Source of the DNA: Dokdonia sp. Dokd-P16
Lineage (GTDB): Bacteria > Bacteroidota > Bacteroidia > Flavobacteriales > Flavobacteriaceae
Assembly: GCF_003095655.1 (NCBI RefSeq)
Contig: NZ_CP029151.1
Coordinates: 2,107,001-2,171,000 of the forward strand
Direction of reading: 5' to 3'
Length of the DNA: 64,000 nucleotides
Of this stretch, positions 16,740-23,569 are shown in pieces. Every line of letters starts with the position of its first letter. Position 1 is the first letter of the stretch. The notes beneath the pieces are model-generated. The model saw only the letters and a program-made list of their open reading frames with translations, did not search any database and was not told where the DNA came from. The translations under genes were made by a program, and so were the position numbers.

Positions 16740-17009
16740 TTATTTACGGATACCTAATTCCTTAATAATAGCTCTGTAACGTAAAATGTCTTTCTTGATT
16801 AAGTAATCAAGTAATGAACGACGCTTACCTACTAGCATTACTAGTGAACGCTCTGTAACATAATCTTTACGATTTGTTTTCAGGTGGTTTGATAAGTGTG
16901 AGATACGTTGTGTAAAGATTGCGATTTGACCCTCAGCAGATCCTGTATCGTGCTTTCCTTTACCGTGTTTTGCAAAAAGCTCTTGCTTTTGTTCTTTTGT
17001 TAAATACAT
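16740..17009 (-). CDS. rpsO: 30S ribosomal protein S15
   Basis: 89 residues, the standard length. Family signatures include KHDTGSAEGQIAIFTQRISHL, HLKTNRKDYVTERSLVMLVGKRRSLLDYL and the C-terminal RYRAIIKELGIRK. It binds 16S rRNA early in assembly of the small subunit. It has its own promoter at 17063-17091 and a terminator right after the stop, so it is mainly monocistronic here despite lying upstream of pnp. Confidence 0.98.
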   Translation of the reverse strand: MYLTKEQKQELFAKHGKGKHDTGSAEGQIAIFTQRISHLSNHLKTNRKDYVTERSLVMLVGKRRSLLDYLIKKDILRYRAIIKELGIRK

Positions 17010-17062
17010 TCCAGTATTATTTTAAATGAAATTCATGTATTGATAGCGTCTCTATCAGCGTG

Positions 17063-17091
17063 CAAAGATACATTATTCTTTGTATTATCAA
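17063..17091 (-). promoter_or_regulatory. Promoter of rpsO
   Basis: Minus-strand TTG (17091-17089), an 18-base spacer and TATCTTTG (17070-17063) fit the Bacteroidetes -33/-7 consensus. The leader is about 47 bases and holds a small hairpin GATAG-CGTCT-CTATC (17042-17056). Confidence 0.6.
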
Positions 17092-18247: not shown

Positions 18248-19144
18248 TTAGGAGGAAGTGAGTTCTGTAAATAATCCCTCTAGGCTCACGTTTTTTTGAT
18301 TGAGTTGTAAGATTTTAAGGTCGTTATCATGTGCAAAGTCAAAGACCTTTGCTCTCATATCATCTTGAGTACTAAAGGTAATTTCATATATAAACCCTGT
18401 AGTGTTTTTTACAGAAGCTACTTTGTCTAGCCTGCTCAATGCTACTTCTTCTACACGGTAATCAAATTCGGCAATGACTATTTGTTGCTGTCCATCGCGT
18501 AGCTCCGTCATTTTCTTATCTGCAACTATAGTTCCTTTATTAATAATAATCACACGATCACAAATAGCTTCTACCTCTTGCATAATGTGCGTACTCATTA
18601 ATATCGTCTTTTTCTTGCCTATATCCTTAATGAGATTTCTAATGTCTAATAGCTGATTAGGATCTAGTCCCGTAGTAGGCTCATCGAGTATCAATACTTC
18701 TGGGTCATGTAGTAAAGCAGTAGCAAGACCTACACGCTGTCGGTACCCTTTTGATAGTTGGCTTATTTTTTTATGTGCCTCAGAGGTTAGTCCTGTGAGG
18801 TTGATAACTTCATCTATACGTTCTTTAGAAACTTTATAAACTCCTGCGTTAAAAGCGAGGTATTCTCGCACATACATTTCTACATATAGTGGGTTGTGTT
18901 CTGGTAAGTATCCCACAGCACGACGTACTTCTTGTACATTGCTTTTGGTGTCGTGGTGATGTACTGTTGCCGTGCCAGACGTAGGAGCAAGAAAGGTGGT
19001 GAGTATTTTCATTAATGTACTCTTGCCAGCACCATTAGGGCCGAGAAAACCTACAATTTCACCTTTTTGTAAGGAAAAAGAAATATGATCAAGCGCCTTT
19101 TGCTTGCCGTACATTTTTGTGATGTCTGTTACTACAATGGACAT
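18248..19144 (-). CDS. gldA: Gliding-motility ABC transporter ATPase GldA
   Basis: 298 residues from the ATG at 19142-19144 (MSIVVTDITKMYGKQKAL), the usual GldA start; an upstream ATG at 19195 adds 17 atypical residues. Walker A is GPNGAGKST, the signature is LSKGYRQRVGLATAL, and Walker B is LILDEPTTGLDP. The H-loop is STHIM. GldA supplies ATP hydrolysis to the GldAFG transporter needed for gliding in flavobacteria; gldF and gldG are not adjacent in this window. It lies upstream of the rhodopsin gene on the same strand but separated from it by 137 bases. Confidence 0.9.
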   Translation of the reverse strand: MSIVVTDITKMYGKQKALDHISFSLQKGEIVGFLGPNGAGKSTLMKILTTFLAPTSGTATVHHHDTKSNVQEVRRAVGYLPEHNPLYVEMYVREYLAFNAGVYKVSKERIDEVINLTGLTSEAHKKISQLSKGYRQRVGLATALLHDPEVLILDEPTTGLDPNQLLDIRNLIKDIGKKKTILMSTHIMQEVEAICDRVIIINKGTIVADKKMTELRDGQQQIVIAEFDYRVEEVALSRLDKVASVKNTTGFIYEITFSTQDDMRAKVFDFAHDNDLKILQLNQKNVSLEGLFTELTSS

Positions 19145-19344
19145 AGAGGAGTATTTAATACTGTAAATGTAAGAATTGATAACGGGAGGATACATTTAAA
19201 AGTGTGACGATCATTTATGCCGATTAGATTTTAAGATAAGGATACGTATCGTATTCTCATTTTCATTAGTTTATCAATGTTTGATTGATAATTTCTCAAA
19301 ATCTATGCTCAATAAAAAATATTTCATAAAAGGAGCTAAATTAA

Positions 19345-19374
19345 TTGGCTCATTAGATATTTTTTCTACTTTAG
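19345..19374 (+). promoter_or_regulatory. Promoter of the aromatic amino acid operon
   Basis: TTG at 19345-19347, a 19-base spacer and TACTTTAG at 19367-19374, close to the TAnnTTTG box. Predicted transcription start near 19380, about 12 bases ahead of the leader peptide. The rest of the gap 19145-19344 shows only a GATACGTATC palindrome at 19241-19250. Confidence 0.55.
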
Positions 19375-19391
19375 CAGTCAAATAACTCAAC

Positions 19392-19472
19392 ATGTTATCA
19401 AACGTTTATTATTGGAACAATTTTTTCTATTTCTTCTTTTACGGGAAGAGATCAGGATTGATATTGTGCTAA
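19392..19472 (+). CDS. Leader peptide of the pheA operon (attenuation peptide)
   Basis: A 26-residue reading frame starting ATG at 19392 and ending TAA at 19470-19472. Residues 6-17 read YYWNNFFYFFFY, so ten of twelve are aromatic (five Phe, four Tyr, one Trp). The tail is GKRSGLILC. It directly precedes a terminator hairpin and the pheA operon. Stalling of the ribosome on these codons when charged tRNA-Phe or tRNA-Tyr is scarce would control the downstream structures. The gene is too short for standard ORF callers. Identification rests on codon content, position and the mutually exclusive hairpins. Confidence 0.85.
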   Translation: MLSNVYYWNNFFYFFFYGKRSGLILC

Positions 19473-19531
19473 TTTAATAACACTCAATATTTCAATAAGT
19501 CCTGATAAATTTTTATCAGGGCTTTTTTTTT
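19451..19531 (+). terminator. Attenuator: terminator (19498-19531) with competing antiterminator
   Basis: Terminator stem AGTCCTGATAAA (19498-19509) pairs with TTTATCAGGGCT (19512-19523), followed by nine T. The left arm can instead pair with ATCAGGATT (19451-19459), about nine base pairs including one G-U. That segment lies inside the last codons of the leader peptide. A ribosome reaching the leader stop covers it and lets the terminator form. A ribosome stalled on the Phe/Tyr codons leaves it free to form the antiterminator. Confidence 0.85.
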
Positions 19532-19539
19532 GCACAATT

Positions 19540-20358
19540 ATGAAAGTAGCAATACAAGGCGTACAAGGATCATTTCATCACAAGGTAGCTCAAGAGTTTT
19601 TTGGGGCAGACGTTGCTGTGGTGGAGTGCATGTCTTTTCCTAGACTAGTAGATACACTAGTAGAAGGAGAAGTTCAAGATGCTGTAATGGCTATAGAAAA
19701 TAGTATCGCAGGGGCAATACTCCCTAACTATGCGCTGCTAGATAAACATGATTTACACATAGAAGGAGAGTTTTACCTTGACATCCAGCACCAGTTAATG
19801 GCGCTACCAGGTCAAGGAATAGAAGATATAAAAGAAGTGTGGTCACACCCTATGGCAATCTTACAATGTCGTGAGTTTTTTAGAAACTATCCAGACATCA
19901 AGCTTGTAGAAGATACAGATACCGCAGGTGTAGCACGTGAGATACAAGAAATGCAACTACAAGGAATAGCAGCGATAGCCAGTACAGCTGCAGCAAGTAT
20001 TTACAAACTGGAAATCATTAAAGAGTCCATACAGACTATAAATGAAAATGCAACCCGCTTCTTTATTTTAAATAAGGATAAGAAACAAGTAGAAGGTGTT
20101 ATTGATAAGGCATCTCTAAGATTTTCGGCAGACCATAAGCGTGGTAGCCTTGCGGCAATATTAAATGTGCTGAGTGATTGCAAGATGAATCTCACAAAAA
20201 TTCAGTCCATGCCTATTATCGAAAAGCCGTGGAAGTATGCATTTTTTGTAGATGTGACTTTTGAAAAAATAGAAAGTTTTAACAAGGCAGTACAATTACT
20301 AGAAATCATGGCAAATGATTTTAAAGTACTAGGAGTCTACAAAAACAGAAAGCAATGA
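19540..20358 (+). CDS. pheA: Prephenate dehydratase
   Basis: 272 residues without a chorismate mutase domain. It converts prephenate to phenylpyruvate. The N-terminus VAIQGVQGSFHHKVAQEFF and the catalytic Thr-Arg-Phe of ENATRFFIL are as expected. The C-terminal ACT domain (about residues 190-272) retains GSLAAILNVL. The Phe-binding ESRP motif is replaced by QSMP in LTKIQSMPIIEKPW, so allosteric inhibition by Phe may be altered. It is the first structural gene after the attenuator. Its stop overlaps the start of the aminotransferase by four bases. Confidence 0.94.
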   Translation: MKVAIQGVQGSFHHKVAQEFFGADVAVVECMSFPRLVDTLVEGEVQDAVMAIENSIAGAILPNYALLDKHDLHIEGEFYLDIQHQLMALPGQGIEDIKEVWSHPMAILQCREFFRNYPDIKLVEDTDTAGVAREIQEMQLQGIAAIASTAAASIYKLEIIKESIQTINENATRFFILNKDKKQVEGVIDKASLRFSADHKRGSLAAILNVLSDCKMNLTKIQSMPIIEKPWKYAFFVDVTFEKIESFNKAVQLLEIMANDFKVLGVYKNRKQ

Positions 20359-21497
20359 TGCAACCAGCAAATAGGTTACAGGAAACCAAGGAATACTACT
20401 TTTCGCGAAAGCTTAAGGAAGTTCGCGCACTCATTGCAGATGGTCATCCTGTGATTAATATGGGAATAGGAAGCCCAGATATGCCAGCACCACCAGCAGC
20501 AGTTGCGGCGATGCTCAAAGGATTGCATGATAGCGTAGCTCACCAGTACCAGAGTTATACTGGTATTCCTGAATTACGAGGAGCCATGGCAGATTTCTAT
20601 AAAAAACAATATGGAGTAATCGCAAATCCAGACACTGAGATATTACCACTCATGGGTTCTAAGGAAGGGATTATGCACATCTCGATGGCATTTTTGAATC
20701 CTGGAGATAAAGTCCTTTTTCCTAATCCTGGATACCCTAGTTATGCTGCGGTAACAAGACTTGTGGAGGCAGAAGCAATTACATACGATCTTAACGAAGA
20801 GAACGGTTGGTTGCCAGACTTAAAGGCACTGGCGGCTCAAGATCTTTCGGGTGTAAAGATAATGTGGGTAAATTATCCTCATATGCCTACTGGGACTAAG
20901 GTGCCAGATGGTTTTTTTGAAGAATTGATCGCTTTCGCGAAAGCGCAACACATACTAGTAATCAACGATAATCCATATAGTTTTGTGCTTAATGACAATC
21001 CGCAATCACTGCTGGCAGTACCCGGAGCGTCTGAAGTAGCCTTAGAACTCAACAGTCTTAGTAAGACCTTCAATATGTCCGGATGGCGTGTGGGAATGGT
21101 ACTAGGAAGCGCCGAAAATATAGGACACGTATTGCGTGTAAAATCTAATATGGATAGCGGTATGTTTTACGGCATACAGAAAGGAGCTGTAGCAGCCTTA
21201 GGCCTAGGAGATGACTGGTTTGAGCATATCAATACCATTTATGGACGCCGTCGTAAACTAGTTTATGAGCTAGCCGAAAGGTTAGGTTGTACGTACGACA
21301 GAGATGCTGTAGGATTATTTGTTTGGGCAAAACTTCCCGAGGGAATCGATGCCGAGACATTTATAGATAATATTTTATTAGAGAAGTACATCTTTATCAC
21401 ACCAGGAACCATTTTTGGAACGATGGGGAAAGGCTACATCAGATTTAGCCTTTGTGTAAAAGAAGAAGAAATTAAAGAAGCAATAAGCAGATTTTAA
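20355..21497 (+). CDS. Pyridoxal-phosphate aminotransferase (aspartate/aromatic type, fold I)
   Basis: 380 residues. PLP-binding lysine in LNSLSKTFNMSGWRVGM, the substrate-carboxylate Arg near YIRFSLC, and GIGSPDMPAPPA near the N-terminus. Placed between pheA and tyrA, it probably transaminates phenylpyruvate and 4-hydroxyphenylpyruvate, or prephenate; that is inference from context. The start is ATGATG at 20355, overlapping the pheA stop. Two copies of the GCTTTCGCGAAAGC family lie in the coding sequence, at 20401-20412 (coding FSRKL) and 20930-20945 (coding AFAKA). Confidence 0.87.
   Translation: MMQPANRLQETKEYYFSRKLKEVRALIADGHPVINMGIGSPDMPAPPAAVAAMLKGLHDSVAHQYQSYTGIPELRGAMADFYKKQYGVIANPDTEILPLMGSKEGIMHISMAFLNPGDKVLFPNPGYPSYAAVTRLVEAEAITYDLNEENGWLPDLKALAAQDLSGVKIMWVNYPHMPTGTKVPDGFFEELIAFAKAQHILVINDNPYSFVLNDNPQSLLAVPGASEVALELNSLSKTFNMSGWRVGMVLGSAENIGHVLRVKSNMDSGMFYGIQKGAVAALGLGDDWFEHINTIYGRRRKLVYELAERLGCTYDRDAVGLFVWAKLPEGIDAETFIDNILLEKYIFITPGTIFGTMGKGYIRFSLCVKEEEIKEAISRF
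20401..20414. repeat. Intragenic palindrome copy, partial, in the aminotransferase gene
   Basis: TTTCGCGAAAGCTT at codons for YFSRKLK, close to the N-terminus. Partly degenerate on the left side. Confidence 0.75.
20930..20945. repeat. Intragenic palindrome copy in the aminotransferase gene
   Basis: CGCTTTCGCGAAAGCG, translated as AFAKA in the segment ELIAFAKAQHI. Confidence 0.85.
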
Positions 21498-21575: not shown

Positions 21576-22427
21576 ATGAAAGACATTTACATCATAGGGT
21601 TGGGGCTTATAGGAGGATCATTTGCGCGAGATTTGCGCGAGCAAGAACCTGCGGCAACTATTTATGGTATAGATGCAAGTGAATCTCACGTAACTGAGGC
21701 GTTATCATTAGGTTTTATTGACAAAAGCGCCGTACTAGAAGATATTAAAGCAGCAGACCTCGTAGTGCTGGCAATCCCAGTAGATGTGGCTATTCACGTA
21801 CTACCAGACGTTCTTAATCATATAGGAGACGATACGATTGTGGTGGATATGGGATCTACAAAGCAAGCCATTTGTGAAGTAGTATCATCACACCCTAGAC
21901 GTCGCAATTTTCTTGCATGTCATCCTATCGCAGGAACAGAATTTTCTGGGCCTAGTGCTGCGATTACAGGCTTATATAATGGGAAGACTAATATTATATG
22001 CGAGGTAGAGAAAACAGCTTTTAAGCTGCAAGAAAAGGTGCTCGACCTATTTAAGAATATGGGCATGCGCATACGTTACATGGATCCTGTGTCTCATGAT
22101 AAACATATAGCATACGTGAGTCATCTCTCACACATAAGCGCATTTATGCTAGGAAAGACGGTGATACAAAAAGAGAAAAATGAGCGTGATATTTTTGACA
22201 TGGCGGGCAGCGGATTTGCATCTACCGTACGTTTAGCAAAAAGTAATCCAGTTACATGGACCTCAATTTTTAAAGAGAATAAAGAGAATGTCTTAGAGAC
22301 GCTAACTGAATATATTGCAAATCTCAACGATTTTAAAACGCTTTTGGAAAATGACGATTTTCAAGGAGTACACGATGAGATGGAAAACACGAATCATATT
22401 AAGGAAATATTAAACGGAATTAAATAG
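21576..22427 (+). CDS. tyrA: Prephenate dehydrogenase
   Basis: 283 residues. NAD-binding motif IYIIGLGLIGGSFARDL at the N-terminus; catalytic and substrate motifs HPIAGTEFSGPSAA and DKHIAYVSHLSHISAF. It oxidatively decarboxylates prephenate to 4-hydroxyphenylpyruvate for tyrosine. No ACT or chorismate mutase domain is present. It lies 78 bases after the aminotransferase in the same operon. Confidence 0.93.
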   Translation: MKDIYIIGLGLIGGSFARDLREQEPAATIYGIDASESHVTEALSLGFIDKSAVLEDIKAADLVVLAIPVDVAIHVLPDVLNHIGDDTIVVDMGSTKQAICEVVSSHPRRRNFLACHPIAGTEFSGPSAAITGLYNGKTNIICEVEKTAFKLQEKVLDLFKNMGMRIRYMDPVSHDKHIAYVSHLSHISAFMLGKTVIQKEKNERDIFDMAGSGFASTVRLAKSNPVTWTSIFKENKENVLETLTEYIANLNDFKTLLENDDFQGVHDEMENTNHIKEILNGIK

Positions 22428-22486: not shown

Positions 22487-23569
22487 ATGGAAAATAAGAA
22501 AGAACTTAGAAATTGGTTAGACGCTTTTGGCCTTGATCACCCTCTTGTAATTGCGGGACCTTGTAGTGCAGAGACGGAAGCGCAGGTGCTTAAAATAGCT
22601 CACCAACTTAAAGACACAGATGCTACAGTACTACGTGCAGGGATCTGGAAACCAAGAACGCGTCCAGGAAACTTTGAAGGAGTAGGAGCACTTGGGCTTA
22701 AATGGTTGCAAAAAGCCAAAGAAGAAACAGGAATGCTTACGACTACAGAGGTTGCAAATGCAAACCATGTAGACCTAGCTCTTGAAGCAGATATTGATAT
22801 CTTATGGATAGGTGCTCGTACAACGGTGTCTCCATTTATCGTTCAGGAAATTGCAGAAGCTCTCAAAGGAACAGATAAAACGGTGCTTATTAAAAACCCA
22901 GTAAACCCAGATCTAGCTCTATGGTTAGGAGCGGTAGAGCGTTTTTATACTCAGGATATTAAAAATCTAGGAGTAATACACAGAGGTTTCTCTACGTATG
23001 AAAAGACACGTTACAGAAATAATCCAGAATGGCAGATAGCGATAGATCTTCAAAATAAATTTCCAGATCTTCCTTTAATTCTTGATCCATCACACATTGC
23101 TGGACGTCGTGATATTATTCATGATTTATGCCAGACAGGACTTGATCTTAACTATGATGGTATTATGGTAGAGACGCACTATGATCCAGATAATGCATGG
23201 AGTGATGCTGCACAGCAAATCACACCAGCGGCTTTAGTGCAGATGATGGTTGATCTTAAAATAAGAAAAGAAGTAGGTACAGAGCTTGAGTATACAAACA
23301 AGCTTAATACACTACGCACGCAGATTGATGTAATAGATCACCAGCTTATTGAAAGCTTAGGAAAGCGCATGAAAATTTCTGATAGTATAGGAGAGCTTAA
23401 AGCAGAAAATAATGTGTCTATCTTACAAACTAAACGTTGGAATGAAATTCTAGGTAAGATGATTCTAGAAGGAGAGCAAAACAATCTTAGTGAAGAGTTT
23501 ATACTACGTGTATTTAAAGCAGTACACCAAGAGTCTATAAACCACCAGAAGAAAGTGGCAAGGTCGTAA
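22487..23569 (+). CDS. Bifunctional DAHP synthase / chorismate mutase
   Basis: 360 residues from the ATG at 22487 (MENKKELRNW); an upstream in-frame start would read through the palindrome. Residues to about 265 are a type I-beta DAHP synthase with VIAGPCSAETEAQ, WKPRTRPGNFEGVG and DPSHIAGRRD. The last 90 residues (LNTLRTQIDVIDHQLIESLG through ILQTKRWNEIL) are an AroQ-type chorismate mutase. The enzyme thus performs both the entry step of the shikimate pathway and the chorismate branch step. In this fusion type, prephenate or chorismate binding to the mutase domain usually controls the synthase. Confidence 0.93.
   Translation: MENKKELRNWLDAFGLDHPLVIAGPCSAETEAQVLKIAHQLKDTDATVLRAGIWKPRTRPGNFEGVGALGLKWLQKAKEETGMLTTTEVANANHVDLALEADIDILWIGARTTVSPFIVQEIAEALKGTDKTVLIKNPVNPDLALWLGAVERFYTQDIKNLGVIHRGFSTYEKTRYRNNPEWQIAIDLQNKFPDLPLILDPSHIAGRRDIIHDLCQTGLDLNYDGIMVETHYDPDNAWSDAAQQITPAALVQMMVDLKIRKEVGTELEYTNKLNTLRTQIDVIDHQLIESLGKRMKISDSIGELKAENNVSILQTKRWNEILGKMILEGEQNNLSEEFILRVFKAVHQESINHQKKVARS

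Follow-up and report, generated by a model that had tools for sequence, protein, structure and literature searches.

How does Dokdonia sp. Dokd-P16 match the transcription of pheA, and of the aromatic amino acid genes behind it, to the supply of the amino acids that these genes help to make? The window analysed here, a stretch of 64,000 nucleotides (nt) from contig NZ_CP029151.1 (assembly GCF_003095655.1, positions 2,107,001 to 2,171,000 of the forward strand), holds directly ahead of pheA a short open reading frame (ORF) rich in aromatic codons, followed by an intrinsic terminator. From sequence comparison and predicted folds we consider it highly probable that positions 19380-19531 form a classical four-segment, ribosome-mediated transcription attenuator, which would read the supply of Phe- and Tyr-tRNA, and perhaps of Trp-tRNA, in the aminoacylated form. 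That the element is real, complete and widely conserved is well supported, and its response to starvation is predicted. Its parts and the genes of the unit are, in positions of the window:

19392-19472, plus strand: leader ORF of 26 codons, MLSNVYYWNNFFYFFFYGKRSGLILC, with the ATG at 19392 and the stop codon TAA at 19470-19472
19407-19442, plus strand: control codons, leader residues 6-17, Tyr Tyr Trp Asn Asn Phe Phe Tyr Phe Phe Phe Tyr
19425-19457, plus strand: predicted hairpin 1:2 of the protector or pause type, codon run 19425-19438 with 19443-19452 and 19454-19457
19451-19466, plus strand: segment 2, a strand of the antiterminator 2:3, in which 19451-19459 is ATCAGGATT
19451-19459 with 19498-19506 and 19460-19466 with 19485-19491, plus strand: antiterminator 2:3
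19497-19524, plus strand: intrinsic terminator 3:4 of 12 pairs, left arm 19497-19508, loop 19509-19512, right arm 19513-19524
19523-19531, plus strand: terminator T tract of nine T, the first two within the stem
19540-20358, plus strand: pheA, prephenate dehydratase with an ACT domain (Pfam PDT, ACT)
20355-21497, plus strand: aminotransferase class I/II, gene 2 of the unit (Pfam Aminotran_1_2)
21576-22427, plus strand: tyrA, prephenate dehydrogenase (Pfam PDH_N, PDH_C)
22487-23569, plus strand: DAHP synthase-chorismate mutase fusion, DAHPS-CM (Pfam DAHP_synth_1, CM_2)

An attenuator at this place had been proposed in an earlier reading made from the sequence alone. The leader described there, with ten aromatics among residues 6-17 (Y, Y, W, F, F, Y, F, F, F, Y), was recovered base for base. 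The sequence-only reading placed the terminator at 19498-19523; the hairpin with its nine T before pheA is present, but its stem spans 19497-19524 and ends 15 nt short of the gene. The pairing claimed between 19451-19459 and the left arm of the terminator appears in our fold (with 19498-19506), and the two stems are thus mutually exclusive.

According to the mechanism that we propose, an ample supply of charged Phe- and Tyr-tRNA would let the leading ribosome get to the stop codon and cover segment 2, whereupon the 3:4 hairpin would form and RNA polymerase would stop at the nine T. With Phe- or Tyr-tRNA in short supply the ribosome would stall on codons 6-17, a run that lies mostly within segment 1. 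The stalled ribosome would prevent hairpin 1:2, and segment 2, about 10 nt downstream, would be free to pair with the nascent segment 3. Once 2:3 has formed no terminator could arise, and pheA, the aminotransferase gene, tyrA and the DAHPS-CM gene would be transcribed, presumably as one four-gene transcript. On an untranslated leader 1:2 and 3:4 would form together and transcription would stop, a prediction that follows from the presence of hairpin 1:2. The placement of the codons suits such a device: by the spacing tests given below, and given the size of a ribosome footprint, a stall would leave segment 2 free and a ribosome at the stop codon would cover it.

The predicted folds of the window agree with this scheme. 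With a ribosome at the stop codon, the RNA that would remain exposed (19484-19531) folds as the terminator, with -15.1 kcal/mol and a z of -7.2; with a ribosome stalled on the aromatic run, the exposed part (19451-19516) folds as the antiterminator (-12.5 kcal/mol, z -2.5, 3 of 200 shuffles as good). For the whole leader RNA we obtained -35.1 kcal/mol (z -6.05), a value reached by 0 of 200 shuffles; its minimum free energy fold pairs the codon run 19425-19438 with 19443-19457 and thereby overlaps the antiterminator strand. In the folding model, the codon run and the purine-rich tail of the leader are the 1:2 hairpin of a classical four-segment attenuator, an element absent from the sequence-only reading. 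Folded alone (19422-19470), this hairpin has -10.6 kcal/mol and a z of -1.7, with 12 of 200 shuffles as good. A terminator scan of 18800-20000 gave 4 sites against 0.5 expected, and the stem of the pheA terminator is the longest among them (12 pairs versus 8, 8 and 5).

Is the arrangement kept in related bacteria? GTDB-species contigs were scanned with the PheA of the window and the best 80 of 127 relatives were kept, by title all from genera of the Flavobacteriaceae except one (L023, titled Flavobacteriales); 400 nt upstream of pheA were searched. Leader and terminator stand ahead of pheA in 77 of the 80 relatives and in the window. Among the three others, the sequence before pheA is only 46 nt long in L023 and 140 nt in L064, where a leader is visible without its start, and L039 has a leader without a terminator by the rule used. 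By the same rule a terminator precedes the first structural gene in 78 of 81 rows (the 80 loci and the window). Among the 78 leaders there are 60 different peptide sequences, and Tyr occurs in every one. The core of segment 3 varies by genus, being AGTCCTGA in Dokdonia, AATCCCGA or AATCCTGA in Flavobacterium and AGTCTCGA in Polaribacter, Tenacibaculum and Algibacter-like genera; between genera, changes in this core are matched in segments 2 and 4. At core positions 2, 5 and 6 both partner strands change, in both helices (77 of 78 rows, pairs taken from each row's own predicted fold; L049, whose core differs by one base, was left out); position 5 with segment 2, for example, is C-G in 39 rows and U-A in 38. 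In all 77 rows core positions 2-6 are paired to segment 2. Pairs with segment 4 are few or absent for the window and L001 in this analysis, which we attribute to the cut-point of the fold; the stem of the window is seen in a separate fold.

The distance from the last aromatic codon to segment 2 is nearly constant (9.7 nt, standard deviation (sd) 1.3, range 4-13, n=77), whereas the stop codon wanders from -8 to +23 nt relative to segment 2 (sd 9.5, n=77). Such a fixed distance with a wandering stop is what the leading edge of a stalled ribosome would impose, although the lower bound of the spacing is less informative than the upper one because the fold begins after the last aromatic codon. The reading frame is kept in the relatives. 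Eight equal-length clusters, which cover 59 of 78 rows, contain 78 single-base codon differences, of which 35 are synonymous (15% expected); where such a change falls in an aromatic codon, the residue stays aromatic in 15 of 17 cases, compared with an expectation of 22% for Phe/Tyr codons. These rows are related sequences picked by aromatic content, so that the p-values are overstated. The comparison across Dokdonia and its relatives that had been suggested as a check thus returned a conserved aromatic leader and covariation of both stems.

Compared with tail-shuffled controls, hairpin 1:2 has a mean z of -1.84 in this first set (at most -1 in 38 of 56 distinct rows, at least +1 in 0), and at least five pairs between codon run and tail occur in 55 of the 56. 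The spacer, taken as the first 9 nt past the aromatic run, is 85% purine against 55% past the stop codon (78 rows), probably because of hairpin 1:2; in the class-level set described next the gap is 64% purine versus 57%.

How far the element reaches was surveyed in 295 genomes of a class that we take to be the Bacteroidia of GTDB, its families being known to us by code only. A PF00800 match was present in 78 genomes including that of the window, and the other 77 were analysed; an order survey of 246 genomes, in which loci were also inspected for leaders, stands outside these counts. Six of 145 loci had no tblastn match and were left out. A leader lies directly before pheA in 52 of the 77 genomes: 47 with at least six aromatics in 12 residues, four of family f17 with five, a level also reached by 84 of 770 shuffles, and one started by GTG (G278). 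With three further units from genus f16-g76, a leader heads the pheA-containing unit in 55 of 77 genomes from 18 families. Short ATG-started ORFs with at least seven aromatics in 12 residues, at most 450 nt upstream of pheA, were found in 41 of 77 genomes; dinucleotide shuffles gave 3 of 770, and the reverse strands 1 of 77. The match of G259 (f46), a 42-codon ORF at -384 without a terminator, was left out. Outside the class, no such leader was found at any of 29 pheA loci from 11 families, the best-scoring new ones in a search of the phylum.

The survey disposes of an explanation of the aromatic run as a chance product of an AT-rich region, which we rejected on the shuffles and reverse strands. 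Runs of six Phe/Tyr codons are not rare alone: the genome of the window has 48 such places, against 50 for the reversed pattern. Thirty of the 48 were examined, and an in-frame upstream ATG exists in three only, namely one in a 299-codon ORF and two overlapping places at the pheA leader itself.

The anatomy recurs at the level of the class. A terminator by the rule used follows 48 of 52 class leaders (counted with the G259 match and without the GTG leader); the four lacking it are the G259 match and L088, L121 and L128, in which a hairpin and T run are seen by eye. The antiterminator has a z of -2 or below in 41 of 48 leaders, one of the 41 (L139) being a tandem case and not a proper one. The last aromatic codon lies 10.2 nt before segment 2 (sd 2.5), and the distance from codon run to stop has an sd of 9.6 (n=47). 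Segments were then swapped between families, with one row per genus (31 genera, 18 families). Mean 2:3 pairing is -15.9 kcal/mol for a leader's own segments, -10.1 with segment 2 of other families and -7.8 with a shuffled one; the own pairing is stronger than the median swap in 30 of 31 genera and ranks with the best 10% of swaps in 20 of 31, and 0 of 2000 permutations reach the mean. Hairpin 1:2 has a mean z of -1.73 against tail-shuffled controls (at most -1 in 30 of 47, at least +1 in 0), and at least five pairs between codon run and tail are present in 32 of 47 leaders, a count of the pairing itself and not of its effect. That stalling on the Phe/Tyr run would free the antiterminator, as had been claimed, is hence supported by the conserved frame and aromatic codons, the three-strand covariation, the fixed spacing and the recurrence across the class.

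L139 (f50) was left out of the class-level spacing, swap and hairpin 1:2 tests. From about -306 to -20 before its pheA two aromatic leaders, each with a hairpin and T run, appear by eye to stand in tandem.

Several results weigh against the attenuator or reduce the force of the evidence for it. The pheA unit has no leader at its head in 22 of 77 class genomes. Fewer than five pairs between codon run and tail are found in 15 of 47 class-level leaders; when hairpin 1:2 is compared with synonymous Phe/Tyr recoding its mean z is only -0.75 and -0.53, and pyrimidine-rich codons next to a purine-rich tail are expected to pair to some extent from composition. The z of the window's own antiterminator is modest (-1.6 and -2.5 in separate folds). 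Where terminator and antiterminator can both form the terminator is the more stable fold, and the switch must therefore be kinetic. The covariation and coding tests overstate significance because the rows are related.

Could the peptide rather than its codons be the sensor? A nascent aromatic-rich peptide might halt the ribosome on binding free Phe, Tyr or another ligand and so set the RNA fold, as TnaC does with Trp (PMC8429421), and the shortness of the leader and its conserved aromatic composition would suit such an arrest peptide. Conservation is restricted, however, to the aromatic character: the order of F and Y, the flanks and the C-terminal tail vary freely between genera and families, and five to eleven aromatic codons in a run suit codon reading. 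Antitermination in amino acid excess would also be backwards for a biosynthetic unit, and we regard this explanation as very improbable. The stability of the terminator, the most stable structure of the region, would fit a constitutive partial terminator in which the short ORF only insulates or tunes and senses no amino acid. We give this very little credence, as it leaves unexplained why aromatic codons are kept across 18 families, why a second pairing strand covaries with the terminator and why the distance from codon run to that strand is fixed.

No Rfam family (4227 searched) matches the region of leader and terminator at gathering score, a relaxed search of 19300-19620 gave sub-threshold matches only, and neither search returned a covariance model match of a T-box or metabolite riboswitch at the leader. 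The best relaxed match was a Vibrio small RNA family with 31 bits versus a cut-off of 50, over 19451-19530, which includes the terminator hairpin. A factor- or ligand-binding RNA (riboswitch, T-box or protein-bound leader) with an ORF there by chance, for which one might cite the structured, conserved pheA 5' element without an Rfam match that PMC9723704 reports in Flavobacteriaceae, is hardly credible given these searches and the coding constraint on the leader.

With an attenuator as the favoured reading, which gene does it belong to? The mixed Phe and Tyr codons had been taken to fit an operon that holds tyrA as well as pheA, and this part of the sequence-only reading did not hold. Gene content was recorded up to 6 kb downstream of pheA in the 77 genomes, with profiles built from the first 80 loci. 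A leader heads 36 of 47 units with tyrA and 18 of 29 without. The Tyr share of Phe plus Tyr in the leaders is 0.44 with and 0.46 without tyrA, or 0.46 versus 0.44 at a strict tyrA score of 100 bits, which drops weak f33 matches of 26-43 bits. None of 32 leaders with or 19 without a detected tyrA is free of Tyr, the contig of one among the 19 (G005) being too short to judge; at the strict score Tyr is absent from none of 27 and 23, respectively. An origin of the Tyr codons in the presence of tyrA was thus rejected.

By DAHPS-CM status, a leader heads 54 of 60 units with DAHPS-CM and 0 of 16 without, and one further contig ends too early. Among the 16 are nine genomes, eight of f13 and one of f25, that have pheA and tyrA; these nine pheA-tyrA units are leaderless. 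In the f25 genome (G024) an aromatic leader and terminator instead precede the separate DAHPS-CM gene (L351), the only genome with a leader before a DAHPS-CM apart from pheA. The other 15 genomes showed no clear leader at their separate DAHPS-CM, with reservations for the ambiguous f2, for a locus with 101 nt upstream and for a broken gene. Conversely, six genomes (f26, f46, f55, f64 twice and f72) have DAHPS-CM in the unit and no leader. In f16-g76 the order is leader, DAHPS-CM, two genes that we take to be aroB- and aroA-like, pheA and the aminotransferase gene, with tyrA also present (G127: L357/L352; G095: L354; G267: L355). All on one strand in two of these genomes and matched in gene order in the third, this arrangement was counted as one leader-headed unit. 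The PheA tree offers only three independent pairs with a DAHPS-CM difference on well-supported branches. In 2.7 of these 3 pairs on average the leader follows DAHPS-CM, in none does it go the opposite way, and with so few pairs the association cannot reach phylogenetic significance.

Two side observations concern these loci. In G127 a second DAHPS-CM-like gene lies just upstream of the leader. In four of five f2 genomes (L335, L336, L338, L341) a frame ending in (T)YYRFYWYC or similar, with no nearby ATG, stands about 150-170 nt before DAHPS-CM; this could be an aromatic leader that starts unusually, or else the end of a different ORF.

The Tyr codons go better with DAHPS-CM than with tyrA, since prephenate, the product of DAHPS-CM, leads to Phe as well as Tyr. 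Trp synthesis depends on DAHP synthase too, and 42 of 60 distinct leaders in the first set contain a Trp codon, as do 19 of 51 class-level leaders from 7 families, which makes a three-way sensing of Phe, Tyr and Trp plausible. A more far-reaching proposal can be offered only tentatively, and we are inclined to doubt it somewhat: all these leaders may be one homologous attenuator, ancestral to the class, that belongs to DAHPS-CM and not to pheA or tyrA, works as an OR gate for Phe-tRNA, Tyr-tRNA and, in many lineages, also Trp-tRNA, sets the entry into the whole pathway and stays with DAHPS-CM through operon rearrangement. If this were true, so broad an occurrence of the attenuator would mean that transcription and translation are generally in tight coupling in a group whose translation starts are not led by Shine-Dalgarno sequences.

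Among known systems, the element resembles the ribosome-mediated attenuators of the trp, his and phe type, such as E. coli trpL, hisL and pheL, in having a short leader rich in codons for the product, segments that pair as 1:2, 2:3 and 3:4 with the control codons in segment 1, and an intrinsic terminator just before the first biosynthetic gene. In contrast to the E. coli representatives, the element belongs to a phylum in which initiation is not Shine-Dalgarno-led, one run here would read two and sometimes three aromatic amino acids, and there is no Rfam match at gathering score. E. coli pheL likewise is a Phe-codon leader before pheA, but in the present leaders Tyr makes up about 45% of the Phe plus Tyr residues class-wide and the unit includes DAHPS-CM; in E. 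coli the mutase is part of pheA itself and the DAHP synthases are encoded elsewhere. The leaders of ilvGMEDA and thrABC also read several amino acids of a shared pathway, there the aspartate and branched-chain amino acids instead of the aromatic ones.

A conserved pheA 5' element in Flavobacteriaceae is already known. The text of the Flavobacterium psychrophilum transcriptome study (PMC9723704, 2021) mentions it as present in other genera of the family and without an Rfam match, and sees strong clues for leader-peptide attenuation upstream of amino acid biosynthesis operons. The section concerned gives the element no sequence, structure or codon content and a range within Flavobacteriaceae, and the supplement may say more. 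PMC7366714 refers in general terms to leader-peptide-like short ORFs in Bacteroides, and PMC4833913 cites Lopatovskaya et al. 2010. In a literature that was mostly open-access and judged largely by title and abstract, we found no description of the leader anatomy, the covariation, the class-wide range or the link to DAHPS-CM.

For much of a large bacterial class, on whose attenuators we found little, our analysis gives the logic by which aromatic amino acid synthesis is probably regulated, and the element could be curated as an RNA family. The link to DAHPS-CM yields a sharp prediction of which amino acids the leader must read. Bacteroidetes initiate translation without Shine-Dalgarno pairing, and the element offers a compact, genetically testable assay of whether ribosomes closely follow RNA polymerase in these bacteria.

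Attenuation looks to be in wider use in the genome of the window. It has a His leader, MINNNTHHHHTSIIAQAR, 158 nt before a hisG match (L397), and a Trp leader, MKNNTVHTWWWITQQSLS, with a hairpin and T run behind it, 192 nt before a trpE-like match (L418; 432 bits, under the NCBIfam cut-off of 518). By a simple rule, and with this genome included, short ORFs with at least four His were found at 17 of 18 hisG loci, at least one of them (L408) probably spurious, and Trp leaders at 13 of 18 trpE-like loci examined out of 26.

Upstream of the unit and elsewhere in the window lie:

19345-19374, plus strand: predicted promoter-like site of the Bacteroidetes type, TTGG at 19345-19348, 18 nt, then TACTTTAG at 19367-19374
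18248-19195, minus strand: divergent ABC-transporter gene, upstream
17007-17070, minus strand: S15-Flavobacteria ribosomal protein leader (RF03161, 60 bits)

The ABC-transporter gene presumably resembles gldA. The promoter had been claimed at 19345-19374, and a Bacteroidetes-type site is indeed present there, with one mismatch to the consensus TAnnTTTG (TAnnTTTG / TTTG as cited in PMC7366714). It is absent from a generic sigma-70 scan of 18800-20000, which gave 2 sites against 4.5 expected; the Bacteroidetes consensus is therefore the sole basis for the promoter and for the presumed transcription start. Of 78 rows, 40 have a TAnnTTTG without mismatch no more than 75 nt from the leader ATG, the window with its mismatch being outside the 40, compared with 88 of 1560 mononucleotide shuffles.

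Three relatives resembling Dokdonia pacifica (L006, L009, L010) have short direct repeats, GTCGGATGTTGGGATGAGATTCCCGCCTTCG-like, between terminator and pheA, in the last 180-220 nt. The S15 leader of the window, ahead of a gene for 89 amino acids at 16740-17009, is its sole Rfam match at gathering score.

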